A stretch of DNA of 40,634 nt. Source: Planctomycetaceae bacterium. GTDB lineage: Bacteria; Planctomycetota; Phycisphaerae; SM23-33. Under the pieces are notes generated by a model, which saw only the letters and a program-made list of their open reading frames with translations, searched no databases and was not told the origin of the DNA. The stretch spans positions 1 to 40,634 of the forward strand of contig JBDKTA010000012.1 in NCBI GenBank assembly GCA_039680605.1, given 5' to 3'. How positions within the stretch are numbered: position 1 is the stretch's first letter; each line of letters opens with the position of its first letter. The translations under genes and the position numbers were made by a program. This document shows, one piece after another, positions 6,893-39,705 of the stretch.

Positions 6893-6911
6893 CGAAGCAT
6901 CCTCCAGGGCC

Positions 6912-7041
6912 GTGTGGCATGGGCGTCTCGCCCATGCGTCGGGTCCTGTGGCATGGGCGTCTCGCCCATGCGCACACGCCCCAGGCCAAGAGCACGGGCG
7001 AGACGCCCGTGCCGCGCATGGCCGAGACGGCCATGCCACAC
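6912..7041. repeat. Palindromic repeat cluster, family A (MGVSPM type)
   Basis: A 130-bp block of four consecutive palindromes, two of form GCATGGGCG-TCT-CGCCCATGC and two of form GGGCGAGACGCCC / GGCCGAGACGGCC. The block is bounded by outer inverted repeats GTGTGGCATG and CATGCCACAC. It sits directly upstream of the ptsP ribosome-binding site. Translated in any frame it gives GRDAHAT/MGVSPM-like peptides, which create spurious open frames. Confidence 0.88.
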
Positions 7042-15311: not shown

Positions 15312-15338
15312 AGTCGTTCACAAATAGCATGCACAACA

Positions 15339-15432
15339 GGGTGGCATGGCGACGCAGGTTTCTGTTTCTCCTGGGTCGCCATGATTCGCCGCGCGCCCAT
15401 GGCGACCCGCTTCGCGTGTCGCCATGCCACCC
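15339..15432. repeat. Four-arm palindromic repeat, family B
   Basis: Outer arms GGGTGGCATGGCGAC (15339-15353) and GTCGCCATGCCACCC (15418-15432). Inner arms GGGTCGCCATG (15373-15383) and CATGGCGACCC (15398-15408). It lies upstream of the binding-protein gene. The same four-arm plan is seen in the element inside fmt. Confidence 0.85.
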
Positions 15433-15443
15433 GACGAAGAACA

Positions 15444-16862: not shown

Positions 16863-16938
16863 GTTAGCGGTCGAGCTTGCTCGACGCGGTTGTTTCCCCG
16901 ACTGAACAACCGCGCGGGGCAAGCCCCGCCGCTAACGT
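16863..16938. repeat. Palindromic repeat, family C, between ATP-grasp and decarboxylase genes
   Basis: GTTAGCGGTCGAGCTTGCTC with the partner GGGGCAAGCCCCGCCGCTAAC, plus central GCGGTTGTTT/GAACAACCGC. It makes up most of the 95-base spacer. Confidence 0.85.
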
Positions 16939-18270
16939 TTAGTCTTCCTCATATTCAACGACAAATCGCCCGGCCAGTTCGGTGCATTGTTGCTCGATAT
17001 TTACGGGGAGCATGGGCGAGACGCCCATGCTACTCACGGGCGAGACGCCCGTGCTACTGGGCTTAAAGATCGCGTGGCCCAGGAGGCGCGAGTCGTAGTC
17101 GGCGGGGGGGAGGCGCACCTCGTGGCCGGGGGCTCGCTTGAGATACACCTCGCGCACGCGCGGGTCGGCACTGACGGCCGAGGCGTCCAGGCGTAGGATC
17201 ACGCCGCTGCGCTTTGCGAACAGTCGCAGGCCCACCATCTGCTTCCACGCCGCCGGCGGAGGCACGCGGACCGGCTCGCCGGCGGCGAAGTTTACCGCGG
17301 CCGCGAGCATGTCCATGCCGCAGCAGGCCCGCAGCAGCGGGGGCAGGCAGTCGCCGCCGGGGCGCGGGGCGATCTCGATCATCACCGCCTGGCCGTCGCG
17401 CATGATGAAGTCGAGCATGCAGATCGACCGCTCGATGCCGACGGCGCGGCACGCGGCTGCGAGCTGCGCGGTGAACGCGTCCGGCGGCAACTCCGGCGGC
17501 GGGTCCGGCACGATGTACGCCGTACACGTGCCGAGGGTCTGTGAGTGGTCCATGATCTTGCGGGCGACGCGGATGATCCGCGCGCGGCCGCCTTCGATCA
17601 CGAAGTCGCAGCTATACTCGGGGCCTTGGACGAACTCCTCGATGACGGCCACGCTGCGCGAGTCGATCATGGCGCCGTTGGCCGCCCCGGCGCTGTACAT
17701 GCGGGCGTCGTGATGCTCGGCCAGGCGGGCGGTGATGGTCGCCAGGGCGTCGGCGGCCTCGACGGCGGTGCGGCAGAAGAAGATCAATTCGCTGCCGCTG
17801 CCGGTGAGGGGTTTGAGCACGGCCGGACCTGCGATCGAGGCCATGAAATCGGCGGCGTCGGCGGACGTTCGCACGAGGCGTGCCTTGGCGGTGGGCAATC
17901 CTGCGGCCGTCCAGGCCTGTTTGCACGCCAGCTTGCTCCGACACGCCGCCACGGCGGCGGCGGAGGGGTAGGGCAGGTGCATCGCCGCGGCCAGCGATGA
18001 GGCCAGGGCCATCGATTCGTCGTCGAAACATGCCACGCCGACGATGTTGTGGCCGAACCGCACGGCGTGCGCCTGCACCCGCGCCAGGAGTTGGTCGTGG
18101 GGTTCGGACAGATCGGCCAGCAGTTCCTGCTCGGGCGGCGGGGGCGGTTCGGCGGCGTCGTGGCGGTGGGCGCGGGAGGTCAGGAAGATCGCTCGATCCC
18201 CCAACTGCTGACGAATGAGATCGACGTAGTCCGCCGTGGTGCCGGCCACCAGGACGCAGTCATTTAGCAC
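16939..18270 (-). CDS. ATP-grasp ligase with in-frame palindromic repeat
   Basis: A carboxylate-amine/thiol ligase-type enzyme, activating a carboxylate as acyl phosphate with ATP. Visible parts: an N-terminal pre-ATP domain (CVLVAGTTADYVDLIRQQLG), CRSKLACKQAWTAAGLPTAKA, the lysine of GPAVLKPLTGSGS, EEFVQGPEYSCDFVIEGG, and the metal-binding MLDFIMRDGQAVMIEIAPRPGGD (Glu and following). I prefer the GTG at 18270, which has GGAG eight bases upstream and overlaps the transferase stop by 11 bases, giving 443 residues. The ATG at 18294 is the alternative. About 17 residues near the C-terminus (STGVSPVSSMGVSPMLP) are an in-frame family A palindromic repeat (17009-17053), after which VNIEQQ resumes normal sequence. 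Substrates unknown. Confidence 0.9.
   Translation of the reverse strand: MLNDCVLVAGTTADYVDLIRQQLGDRAIFLTSRAHRHDAAEPPPPPEQELLADLSEPHDQLLARVQAHAVRFGHNIVGVACFDDESMALASSLAAAMHLPYPSAAAVAACRSKLACKQAWTAAGLPTAKARLVRTSADAADFMASIAGPAVLKPLTGSGSELIFFCRTAVEAADALATITARLAEHHDARMYSAGAANGAMIDSRSVAVIEEFVQGPEYSCDFVIEGGRARIIRVARKIMDHSQTLGTCTAYIVPDPPPELPPDAFTAQLAAACRAVGIERSICMLDFIMRDGQAVMIEIAPRPGGDCLPPLLRACCGMDMLAAAVNFAAGEPVRVPPPAAWKQMVGLRLFAKRSGVILRLDASAVSADPRVREVYLKRAPGHEVRLPPADYDSRLLGHAIFKPSSTGVSPVSSMGVSPMLPVNIEQQCTELAGRFVVEYEED
17009..17053. repeat. In-frame family A palindromic repeat within the ATP-grasp gene
   Basis: AGCATGGGCG-AGA-CGCCCATGCT (17009-17031) followed by CACGGGCG-AGA-CGCCCGTG (17035-17053). 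It is the same family as 6912-7041. It is translated as MGVSPM/TGVSPV units and keeps the frame of the host gene. Confidence 0.9.
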
Positions 18271-19222
18271 ACGCTGCACTCCTGGACTCTTCATGGCATG
18301 CGTGCTCGGTGTGGTGGGGGATGTTGCTCAGCAGGTACAGCGGTCGCGGGGTCAGGTGGAAGAGCGTCTTCCACGAGAAGTCGCCGCAGAGGAAGTCGAG
18401 CTGGTCGAACCGCTCGCGGCACCCGCGGCGCATGTGGTACACGTTGATCAGCTTGGCCGCCCCCTGCACCGACCGGTCGGCCCCGCCGGCGACCAGCGTG
18501 TAGTGGTTGTTGTAGACGATGCCCATGTCGACGGCCGCCGCCTCGCCGTCGACCAGCAGCGCCGTCATGCGCAGCCACCCGTTCTCGCGAGCCAGCTCCA
18601 TAAGGCTGCGGAAGCCTTCGCGGAACCGTTCGTCGTAGAAATACGACCGCTCGCCGAAGGCGGCCATGTTCAACTCGACCATCCGGTCGAAGTCGGATGC
18701 ATCGTCCAGCCGCCACGTGACGCGCTGCTCGAAGGCGTCGAGTTCGCGGCGGATGCGCTTGGCCGACTTGTGCGAGAACTCGCCCCAGTAGTTCTCCATG
18801 TCGTACCCGTATCGCGGCGGCTCGAAGAGATACCCGATCTCGTCGATCTCGCAGCGGTCGGTCGCGCCGTCGGCTGCCGGCAGCAGGTACCGCAGGTGGC
18901 GCGGCCCGGGGCACAGGGCCAGCAGGCCCTCGAGCATCGCCTCATCACCGGCCAGCAGGCGGTTCTGCTCGAGCCAGGTCTTTCCGACCCAGGTCTCGCC
19001 GGGGAAGTATCCGTAGCAGCCTTGCTCGGCGATCCAGCTCAGCGGCAGCAGTCCGCGCACGAGGGGACCTTCCTCGGCCGCGATGAACAGGGGCGGTCGC
19101 TGGAAATGCCGCTGAAAGCACATCCGCACGTCCCAGCGGTCGGTGAACGATTCCTGCGCGACGGCGCGCTGCCAGAGGTCCCGGCACGCGTCCAGGTCCG
19201 TGATGACACGGTATCGATACAC
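18260..19222 (-). CDS. GNAT-fold acyl/aminoacyl transferase (FemAB/CelD-like)
   Basis: 320 residues, the size of the double-GNAT FemAB/CelD group, whose members transfer aminoacyl or acyl groups. The C-terminal domain reads ALLVDGEAAAVDMGIVYNNHYTLVAGG, then AAKLINVYHMRRGCRERFDQLDFLCGDFSWKTLF, which is the characteristic 'fixed body, then family signature FDFLxGDxxxK' pattern. An N-terminal GNAT half (YRVITDLDACRDLWQRAVAQESFTD) is present. The ATG at 19222 lies 3 bases after the SpeD-like stop, so the two are translationally close. Its stop overlaps the ATP-grasp start. In the cluster it could acylate an amine made by a decarboxylase. The acyl donor is unknown. Confidence 0.82.
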   Translation of the reverse strand: MYRYRVITDLDACRDLWQRAVAQESFTDRWDVRMCFQRHFQRPPLFIAAEEGPLVRGLLPLSWIAEQGCYGYFPGETWVGKTWLEQNRLLAGDEAMLEGLLALCPGPRHLRYLLPAADGATDRCEIDEIGYLFEPPRYGYDMENYWGEFSHKSAKRIRRELDAFEQRVTWRLDDASDFDRMVELNMAAFGERSYFYDERFREGFRSLMELARENGWLRMTALLVDGEAAAVDMGIVYNNHYTLVAGGADRSVQGAAKLINVYHMRRGCRERFDQLDFLCGDFSWKTLFHLTPRPLYLLSNIPHHTEHACHEESRSAACAK

Positions 19223-25193: not shown

Positions 25194-25332
25194 TCAGGGA
25201 AACAACTTTACCACAGAGCACACAGAGAACACTGAGGGAAAAGAATAACCTCACCTCTCCACTTTAGCGGCGGGGCTTGCCCCGCGCGGTTGTTTCCCCA
25301 ACGCCGCAAGAGAAGCACCGCTAAGTTGTTCA
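25194..25332. mobile_element. Inverted-repeat element filling the fmt-rsmB spacer (family E ends, C inside)
   Basis: One end, GGAAACAACTTTACCACAGAG, lies 3 bases from the rsmB ATG. The other end, in reverse complement, starts TGAACAACTTAGCGG and supplies the TGA of fmt. Inside is a family C palindrome (25265-25324). The structure parallels that of the rsmB-smpB spacer. Confidence 0.8.
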
Positions 25333-26343
25333 GACCATCCGCTCGCCAGGCTTGGGGTGAGCGCCGTTGACGAACGATTGCCAGTCCATCAGGCGCTTGC
25401 CGGCGGGTTTAAGCTCAATAATGCGCACTCGCCCGCTTCCAGCGGCGACGGTCAGGTCATCCAGCAGCACGCCGCACTGGCCGGGTGCCATGGCGGCCGT
25501 TTCCGCGCCGCCATGTCCCTGATCGTTCTGCGCGAGCATGGCGGCTGAGGAACGGCCGCCATGGCACCCGGGGTCTTCGATGGCCTCGGCGCGGGCGATG
25601 ATGACGGGTTGCTCTCGCCCGTCAGCTCGGCGCAGCGTGGTCTGGGCTCCGGGCCAGGGCCAGGTGCCGTGGATGCGGTTGCGGATGGTGACGGCGTCGG
25701 CGGACCAGTCGATCACGCCGTCGGCCTTGGTCAGCGGGGGGGCCAAGGTGGCCTTGGCTTCATCCTGCGGCGTGCGCGTCGCGTTGCCGGCCGCCAGCAG
25801 GTCCAGCGTCCGCACCGCCAGGTTTGCCCCCATCGTCGCCAGGCGCGCGGCGAGGTCCTCGGCCGTTTCGCCCGGGTCGATGTCGGTGGCCTCCTGCAGG
25901 TAGATGTCGCCGGCGTCCATCCTGGGCACCAGCGAGAACGTCGTCACGCCCGTGCGGGCAAAGCCGCGGATGATCGCCCAGTTGATCGGCGCCGCCCCGC
26001 GCAGCTCTGGCAACAGCGAGGCATGCACGTTGAAGGCCCCGTGCCTGGCCGTGGCGCAGGTCGGGTCCTTGATGAACTGCCCGTAGTCGGCCACCACGAT
26101 CACGTCGGGCGCCAAAGCCTTCAGGTGTTCGCAGGCTTGCGAGGCGTTGATGGCGCTGCATTCCTGCACAGGCAGGTTCAGGTCTGCGGCAGCGCGGGCC
26201 ACGGGCGTGGGCTGCAGATGTCGCCCGCGTCCGCTCTGTCGCGGCGGTTGCGTAAAGACTTCGAGGACCTGGTGTCCGGCGCCGGCCACAGCGGCCAGGA
26301 TCGGAACGGCCAGCGATCCGCTGCCGCAGAAGACGATTCGCAT
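25330..26343 (-). CDS. fmt: Methionyl-tRNA formyltransferase with in-frame repeat insertion
   Basis: Formylates Met-tRNAfMet for translation initiation. 337 residues from the ATG at 26343, preceded by AAAGGG. Catalytic residues are visible: Asn105, His107 in FNVHASLLP, and Asp143 in RMDAGDIYLQ, with GAAPINWAI and TGVT as family blocks. The C-terminal OB domain (GVLLDDLTVAAGSGRVRIIELKPAGKRLMDW) is present. Between ARAEAIED and GQCGVLL there is an extra stretch of about 31 residues (258-288), which E. coli Fmt lacks. It is encoded by a palindromic repeat at 25481-25571. The active site and the OB core are otherwise intact, so the enzyme is probably functional. The terminal TGA belongs to a repeat element. 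No def gene is next to it. Confidence 0.95.
   Translation of the reverse strand: MRIVFCGSGSLAVPILAAVAGAGHQVLEVFTQPPRQSGRGRHLQPTPVARAAADLNLPVQECSAINASQACEHLKALAPDVIVVADYGQFIKDPTCATARHGAFNVHASLLPELRGAAPINWAIIRGFARTGVTTFSLVPRMDAGDIYLQEATDIDPGETAEDLAARLATMGANLAVRTLDLLAAGNATRTPQDEAKATLAPPLTKADGVIDWSADAVTIRNRIHGTWPWPGAQTTLRRADGREQPVIIARAEAIEDPGCHGGRSSAAMLAQNDQGHGGAETAAMAPGQCGVLLDDLTVAAGSGRVRIIELKPAGKRLMDWQSFVNGAHPKPGERMV
25481..25571. repeat. In-frame palindromic repeat (family B variant) within fmt
   Basis: 91 bp with perfect 21-bp inverted ends (CCGGGTGCCATGGCGGCC and three further bases on each side; 25481-25501 and 25551-25571). Inside are inner arms GCCGCCATG (25508-25516) and CATGGCGGC (25537-25545). 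It has the same four-arm plan as 15339-15432. Translated with the host frame it gives a Gly/Ala/His-rich peptide without stop codons. Confidence 0.93.
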
Positions 26344-26451
26344 AGAATCCCTTTGCATAGAATAAACGCGGGCAAAGTTGCCGCCGTAATTCTACCGATA
26401 TAGGGACTGCTAATCACGAACGGACGCCTCAATTATCGAAAGGGTGCCGCC

Positions 26452-39497: not shown

Positions 39498-39705
39498 CCC
39501 GGAAACACCTTTGCACCGCAGAGATCGCAGAGACCGCAGAGGCATATGTTTTTAGCATGATGCCTCTGCGCCGGGTGGCATGGCGACCCACGAGAAACTC
39601 AAAGTGTGTCGCCATGCCACCCCGCGCCTGACCTGTGGACGCTGAGGATGTCAGAAATAAACAACCTCCTTCCTCTGCGACCTCTGCGACCTCTGCGGCT
39701 TGTTC
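39494..39705. repeat. Family D element (copy 2) with nested family B repeat
   Basis: Left: TTAGCCCG then CACCGCAGAGATCGCAGAG. Right, reverse complement: GCCGCAGAGGTCGCAGAGG. Inside at 39573-39623 is a two-arm family B palindrome (GGGTGGCATGGCGAC / GTCGCCATGCCACCC). It fills the larger part of the 357-base gap between the propeller gene and the rhodanese gene; the remaining part (39706-39854) shows no gene. Confidence 0.72.

Follow-up and report, generated by a model that had tools for sequence, protein, structure and literature searches.

The analysed window, the whole 40,634-nucleotide stretch of contig presented above, carries on its minus strand the gene fmt, coding for methionyl-tRNA formyltransferase and adjoined by rsmB, whose reading frame includes a 91-bp palindrome (Table 1). 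The frame scored 219 bits against the NCBIfam profile TIGR00460 (cut-off 201.5), contained both Pfam domains of the enzyme, the C-terminal one (PF02911) at residues 209-333, and was the sole clear fmt of the genome. Residues Asn110, His112 and Asp148, which we take to be the counterparts of the residues responsible for catalysis in E. coli Fmt, were invariant. As the original prediction had claimed, the frame runs through the palindrome without a stop; Fmt sequence resumes after it and the frame stays open as far as the normal C-terminus. With the insert removed the protein would read EDP-GQCGVLLDDL, in keeping with the family, and the inserted residues were absent from the relatives in the alignment.

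The arms of the palindrome (25481-25515 and 25537-25571) are 89% complementary and their outer 21 nt pair perfectly, in agreement with the position and the inverted ends that had been predicted. Folded as RNA, the palindrome reached -73.4 kcal/mol (z = -9.6), a stability equalled by 0 of 200 shuffles. The outermost two bases on each side are not common to all copies, and comparison of the copies revealed a common core of 87 nt, corresponding to 29 codons and to residues 264-292, which replaces the earlier estimate of about 31 added residues. This core is composed of two inverted 33-nt REP units flanking a short spacer. The spacer starts with TCCCTGA, a motif that recurs at the same-side unit in most copies and in a sister family linked to a RAYT. 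With regard to the target-site duplication of a classical MITE with a DDE transposase, the bases adjacent to the core were not direct repeats in the copies compared; the exact boundaries of the element, and any target duplication or loss, are inferred.

Table 1. Features of the fmt locus, in window positions
Feature	Position	Strand	Basis
fmt, methionyl-tRNA formyltransferase, 342 aa with insert	25330..26358	-	TIGR00460, PF00551 + PF02911, E. coli Fmt structure alignment
Palindrome, 91 bp	25481..25571	.	inverted arms, RNA folding, copy comparison
Core of 87 nt, a REPIN-like REP pair; codes for residues 264-292 of Fmt, GCHGGRSSAAMLAQNDQGHGGAETAAMAP	25483..25569	. (coding minus)	copy comparison
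REP unit 1: foot GGGTGC, stem CATGGCGGC/GCCGCCATG	25483..25515	+	pattern match, 0 mismatches
Spacer, starts TCCCTGA	25516..25536	.	copy comparison
REP unit 2, inverted: foot GGGTGC, stem as unit 1	25537..25569	-	pattern match, 0 mismatches

The repeated 33-nt unit, hereafter family A, reads GGGTGC-CATGGCGGC-CGTTnnnnn-GCCGCCATG, and its spacer starts with TCCCTGA on one side and often with a CTTGCG-like sequence on the other. A census of the 5.23-Mb genome (a draft of 72 contigs) with this pattern, at up to 3 mismatches, revealed 88 units over dozens of contigs, compared with 0 for the reversed control pattern; two copies with a loop one base longer (L072 and L075) escape the pattern. In the stretches examined these units made up 68 places, namely 20 inverted +- pairs, the fmt copy included, and 48 singlets. 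Hence, the expectation that the element has other copies was borne out at the scale of the genome, whereas the window itself held no further copy and its other palindromes belong to different families. The same pattern census returned 0 units in 99 relatives, and 0 across about 490 other Planctomycetota genomes, made up of these relatives and a wider draw from the phylum. Family A is thus a dispersed high-copy palindrome of 20-40 nt with units in inverted pairs about a short spacer, as REPs and REPINs are, but the canonical GT[AG]G tetranucleotide at the 5' foot of the hairpin is represented by GGGTGC, i.e. GTGC; some loci of homologous RAYTs have a GTGG foot, so that the strict consensus fails while a close variant is conserved. 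Since REPs without GT[AG]G have already been described for other RAYT classes (PMC6006769), we refer to family A as REP-like or as a REP variant.

The distribution of family A relative to genes was assessed with genes called by codon usage, the caller being trained on 260 kb of the genome (coding fraction 0.81). Places within genes were strongly depleted, as 14 of the 68 lay inside 13 genes (P about 1e-26 against the coding fraction) and the remaining 54 lay outside called genes, the mostly extragenic placement typical of REPs. All 14 genic copies were in the frame of the host and free of stops (chance 1/3 each, P 2e-7) and in frame with the sequence downstream of the copy, a count that covers recognisable copies, so that out-of-frame insertions decayed in dispensable genes would escape it. 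Besides fmt, the hosts were hypF, a family-9 glycosyltransferase, thrC, a GH38 mannosidase, a radical SAM protein like pyruvate-formate-lyase activase, a GH106-like protein, a GH95 protein, a polyprenyl synthetase, mnmE, a GH88-BNR protein, a hemW-like gene and, with two copies, a PQQ/methyltransferase protein. They matched known families, mostly on both sides of the insert: matches to the solved MnmE and threonine synthase run through it, and those to HypF stop before it and restart after it. Among the extragenic places no gene entered an element and broke there, except for one overlap at the start of fliO, and the in-frame result is therefore not a mere matter of what the gene caller can see. 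In that overlap the family A unit (L069, 1565-1597) may supply the start codon of fliO (ATGTCCCTG, MSL). In the hemW-like gene (L178, near 1542) the REP insert is closely preceded by a tandem repeat, AALENSNRPDFP, in which the reading frame shifts; an out-of-frame insertion was considered for this gene and rejected, as the shift comes before the REP, which itself shares the frame of the C-terminus. The depletion in genes, taken together with the conserved frame of the genic copies, points to purifying selection acting on the hosts. As all genic copies are in frame in spite of the strong depletion, these inserts, that of fmt among them, are most likely translated, and the surviving copies would be those selected for frame.

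The consequences for the protein were approached with an AlphaFold2 model of Fmt built with 26 relatives. The model had a mean pLDDT of 92.8, with residues 266-288 as the sole run below 50 and high confidence elsewhere, and superimposed on 2fmt, E. coli Fmt in complex with tRNA, with Z 37.2 and rmsd 1.9 over 308 aligned residues (VIA-align). The insert follows the strand at residues 249-260 and falls within PF02911, and not between the catalytic and C-terminal domains where it had been placed at first. As suggested by the model, it probably forms a floppy, disordered loop of 29 residues in the C-terminal domain.

A candidate mobiliser was sought among the 15 matches to Y1 transposases in the genome. 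Only one of those tested, at C39:119328-119903, exceeded the cut-off of the RAYT model (111 bits against 80); it displays the motifs EHVH, WQ and YIHNNP and has REP pairs of the sister family, with the foot GGGTGC, on either side. This family reads GGGTGC-CACGCACAACTCCGTTGTGCGTG, one of the two units being followed by TCCC[TC]GA; it comprises 116 units in the genome, and a small number occur in two genomes from a different genus. Its members (GGGTGCCACGCACAACTCCGTTGTGCGTG; L193-L232, L124) are mostly singlets, and 53 of the 63 units read had no mismatch; they frequently occur joined to CATGGGCG arrays, and 9 of 49 places lie inside called genes, for instance as GATHNSVVRVPD. Family A itself flanks no RAYT in the genome, and its link to the C39 RAYT is the shared foot GGGTGCCA; a search with the feet only (GGGTGCCA...TGTCCC) returned almost exclusively family A and the sister family. 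Furthermore, homologues of this RAYT in other genera were flanked by hairpins, mostly with other stems, of which 25 of 26 had a GGGTG[CG] foot, as compared with 3 of 14 in control loci (P 2e-6). One of them (L238), a RAYT from another taxonomic family, is flanked by hairpins with the family A stem CATGGCGGC/GCCGCCATG on a GGGTGG foot. Because of the shared foot and of this occurrence of the family A stem beside a RAYT, it is likely that family A was spread by the C39 RAYT or by a lost relative of it. Another Y1 transposase, at C41:4091, was rejected as mobiliser: the family A unit 211 nt upstream of its frame is the one inserted in frame in threonine synthase, its other side is free of units, and the protein matches IS200 and not the RAYT model.

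A larger insertion of a related kind was encountered in etfB (L123, G000:C4:17900-21200, minus strand), which is interrupted by about 276 codons (about 828 nt) inserted in frame. The insert holds a RAYT-like gene with inverted arrays of the GTAG/GTGG-CATGGGCG REP family at its two ends. After it the EtfB profile picks up where it had been interrupted, and the RAYT-like part scored 73 bits, slightly below the model cut-off of 80. REPtrons have been stated not to transpose as a unit (PMC6006769), and the etfB insert argues against this view. Within the window, the ATP-grasp gene (16939-18294, minus strand) has an in-frame STGVSPVSSMGVSPMLP stretch near its C-terminus, near 17008-17057, in which the CATGGGCG REP family is present in two copies. 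Further palindromic families of the window are located at 6907-7039, 15338-15440, 39565-39605, 12668, 16864-16936 and 25264-25302, and the numbers of places in the genome, extrapolated from 260 kb, were estimated as 420 for CATGGGCGTCTCGCCCATG, 260 for GGGTGGCATGGCGAC and 340 for TTAGCGGCGGGGCTTGCCCCGC.

We consider it highly probable that the fmt insert is a REPIN-like mobile element, private to this lineage, placed by a RAYT and tolerated in frame with no visible benefit to the gene; in its claim of a tolerated in-frame mobile element the original prediction is supported, and both of the refuting conditions set for it failed, since the repeat is dispersed and the relatives lack the insert. 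A RAYT (TnpA-REP), acting on single-stranded hairpins beside the conserved foot, most likely placed the element in fmt, with a C-terminal-domain loop as the probable landing site. Since the insert amounts to whole codons (87 nt) and has no stop in frame, the gene should still make full-length Fmt, with a disordered surface loop of 29 residues. Selection would have removed out-of-frame insertions, leaving those in frame in tolerant loops, and the insert in fmt is presumably neutral.

Co-option of the insert, either as an mRNA hairpin that tunes fmt expression or as a loop that binds tRNA or another protein, has some basis in the part that the C-terminal domain plays in the binding of tRNA by Fmt. 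REPs, for their part, have been reported to influence mRNA stability and translation (PMC6006769). We regard co-option as improbable, given that the genic copies are read in several different frames as unrelated peptides in unrelated proteins, that the loop is predicted to be disordered and that extragenic copies are far commoner. A normal-length Fmt obtained by intron-like excision or ribosomal bypass of the insert appears very unlikely. In its favour, the stability of the hairpin is high (-73 kcal/mol) and known ribosomal bypass sites include hairpins, yet skipping would render frame and stops irrelevant, contrary to the 14 in-frame, stop-free genic copies, and no intron was found in Rfam, where only sub-threshold models matched the long hairpin; these were mostly microRNAs, which we dismiss as chance matches far below their gathering scores. 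It is just as hard to believe that fmt is a pseudogene or the join a draft-assembly artefact, for despite the 72 contigs and the frameshift near the REP of hemW, the putative catalytic residues are intact, the only clear fmt keeps an unbroken frame as far as its normal C-terminus, the 91-bp insert lies deep in a 40.6-kb contig between unique flanks, and the element recurs on dozens of contigs.

Several known systems come close to the fmt element. Intragenic REPs and REP dimers with GTAG/CGTC tags are already known (Di Nocera et al. 2013, PMC3733652) from Opitutus terrae of the PVC group, Rickettsia conorii, Thauera and others, tRNA-related genes included, where singles and dimers within coding genes likewise add 20-30 residues and are apparently tolerated; unlike these, the present elements have the tag GGGTGC, which is neither GTAG nor CGTC, and reside in other hosts (fmt, mnmE, thrC, hemW) of a phycisphaera-like planctomycete. 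REPINs (Bertels and Rainey 2011, PMC3116915) similarly consist of two inverted hairpin-forming REP units with a spacer, dispersed and linked to a RAYT lineage, but here singlets outnumber pairs (48 of 68 places), and the sister family, for the most part singlets without mismatch, is a poor fit to the notion of singlets as decayed remnants. In motif comparison the transposase resembles TnpA-REP of subclass 2.4 (Quentin et al. 2018, PMC6006769), with similar HuH, WQ and YIxNNP motifs, a subclass in which REP insertions that keep the frame occur within the transposase gene itself; in contrast, the foot here is GTGC or GTGG after GG, not GT[AG]G, and many unrelated genes are hosts. The proposed resemblance to Rickettsia palindromic elements, made by description and not by sequence, holds in so far as both are in-frame palindromic repeats in conserved genes; identity does not follow, the fmt insert being a REP pair with the foot of a RAYT-linked REP family.

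Accordingly, intragenic REPs and REP pairs are known, and what is new is the GTGC/GTGG tag of this RAYT clade, the host genes, a private family and a complete REP-RAYT unit sharing the frame of etfB. It is conceivable, if rather doubtful, that the RAYTs of this lineage are not settled, domesticated genes, that whole REP-RAYT units are autonomous transposons able to insert in frame in conserved genes such as etfB, that single REPs are mobile, and that GGGTG[CG] is the stable recognition code of one RAYT clade, its stems being replaced over time. With Fmt, further tRNA-related enzymes join the proteins decorated by mobile palindromes, the natural set of more than 12 in-frame insertions marks tolerant loops, and the constant foot with its changing stems makes the recognition of REPs by RAYTs directly testable.
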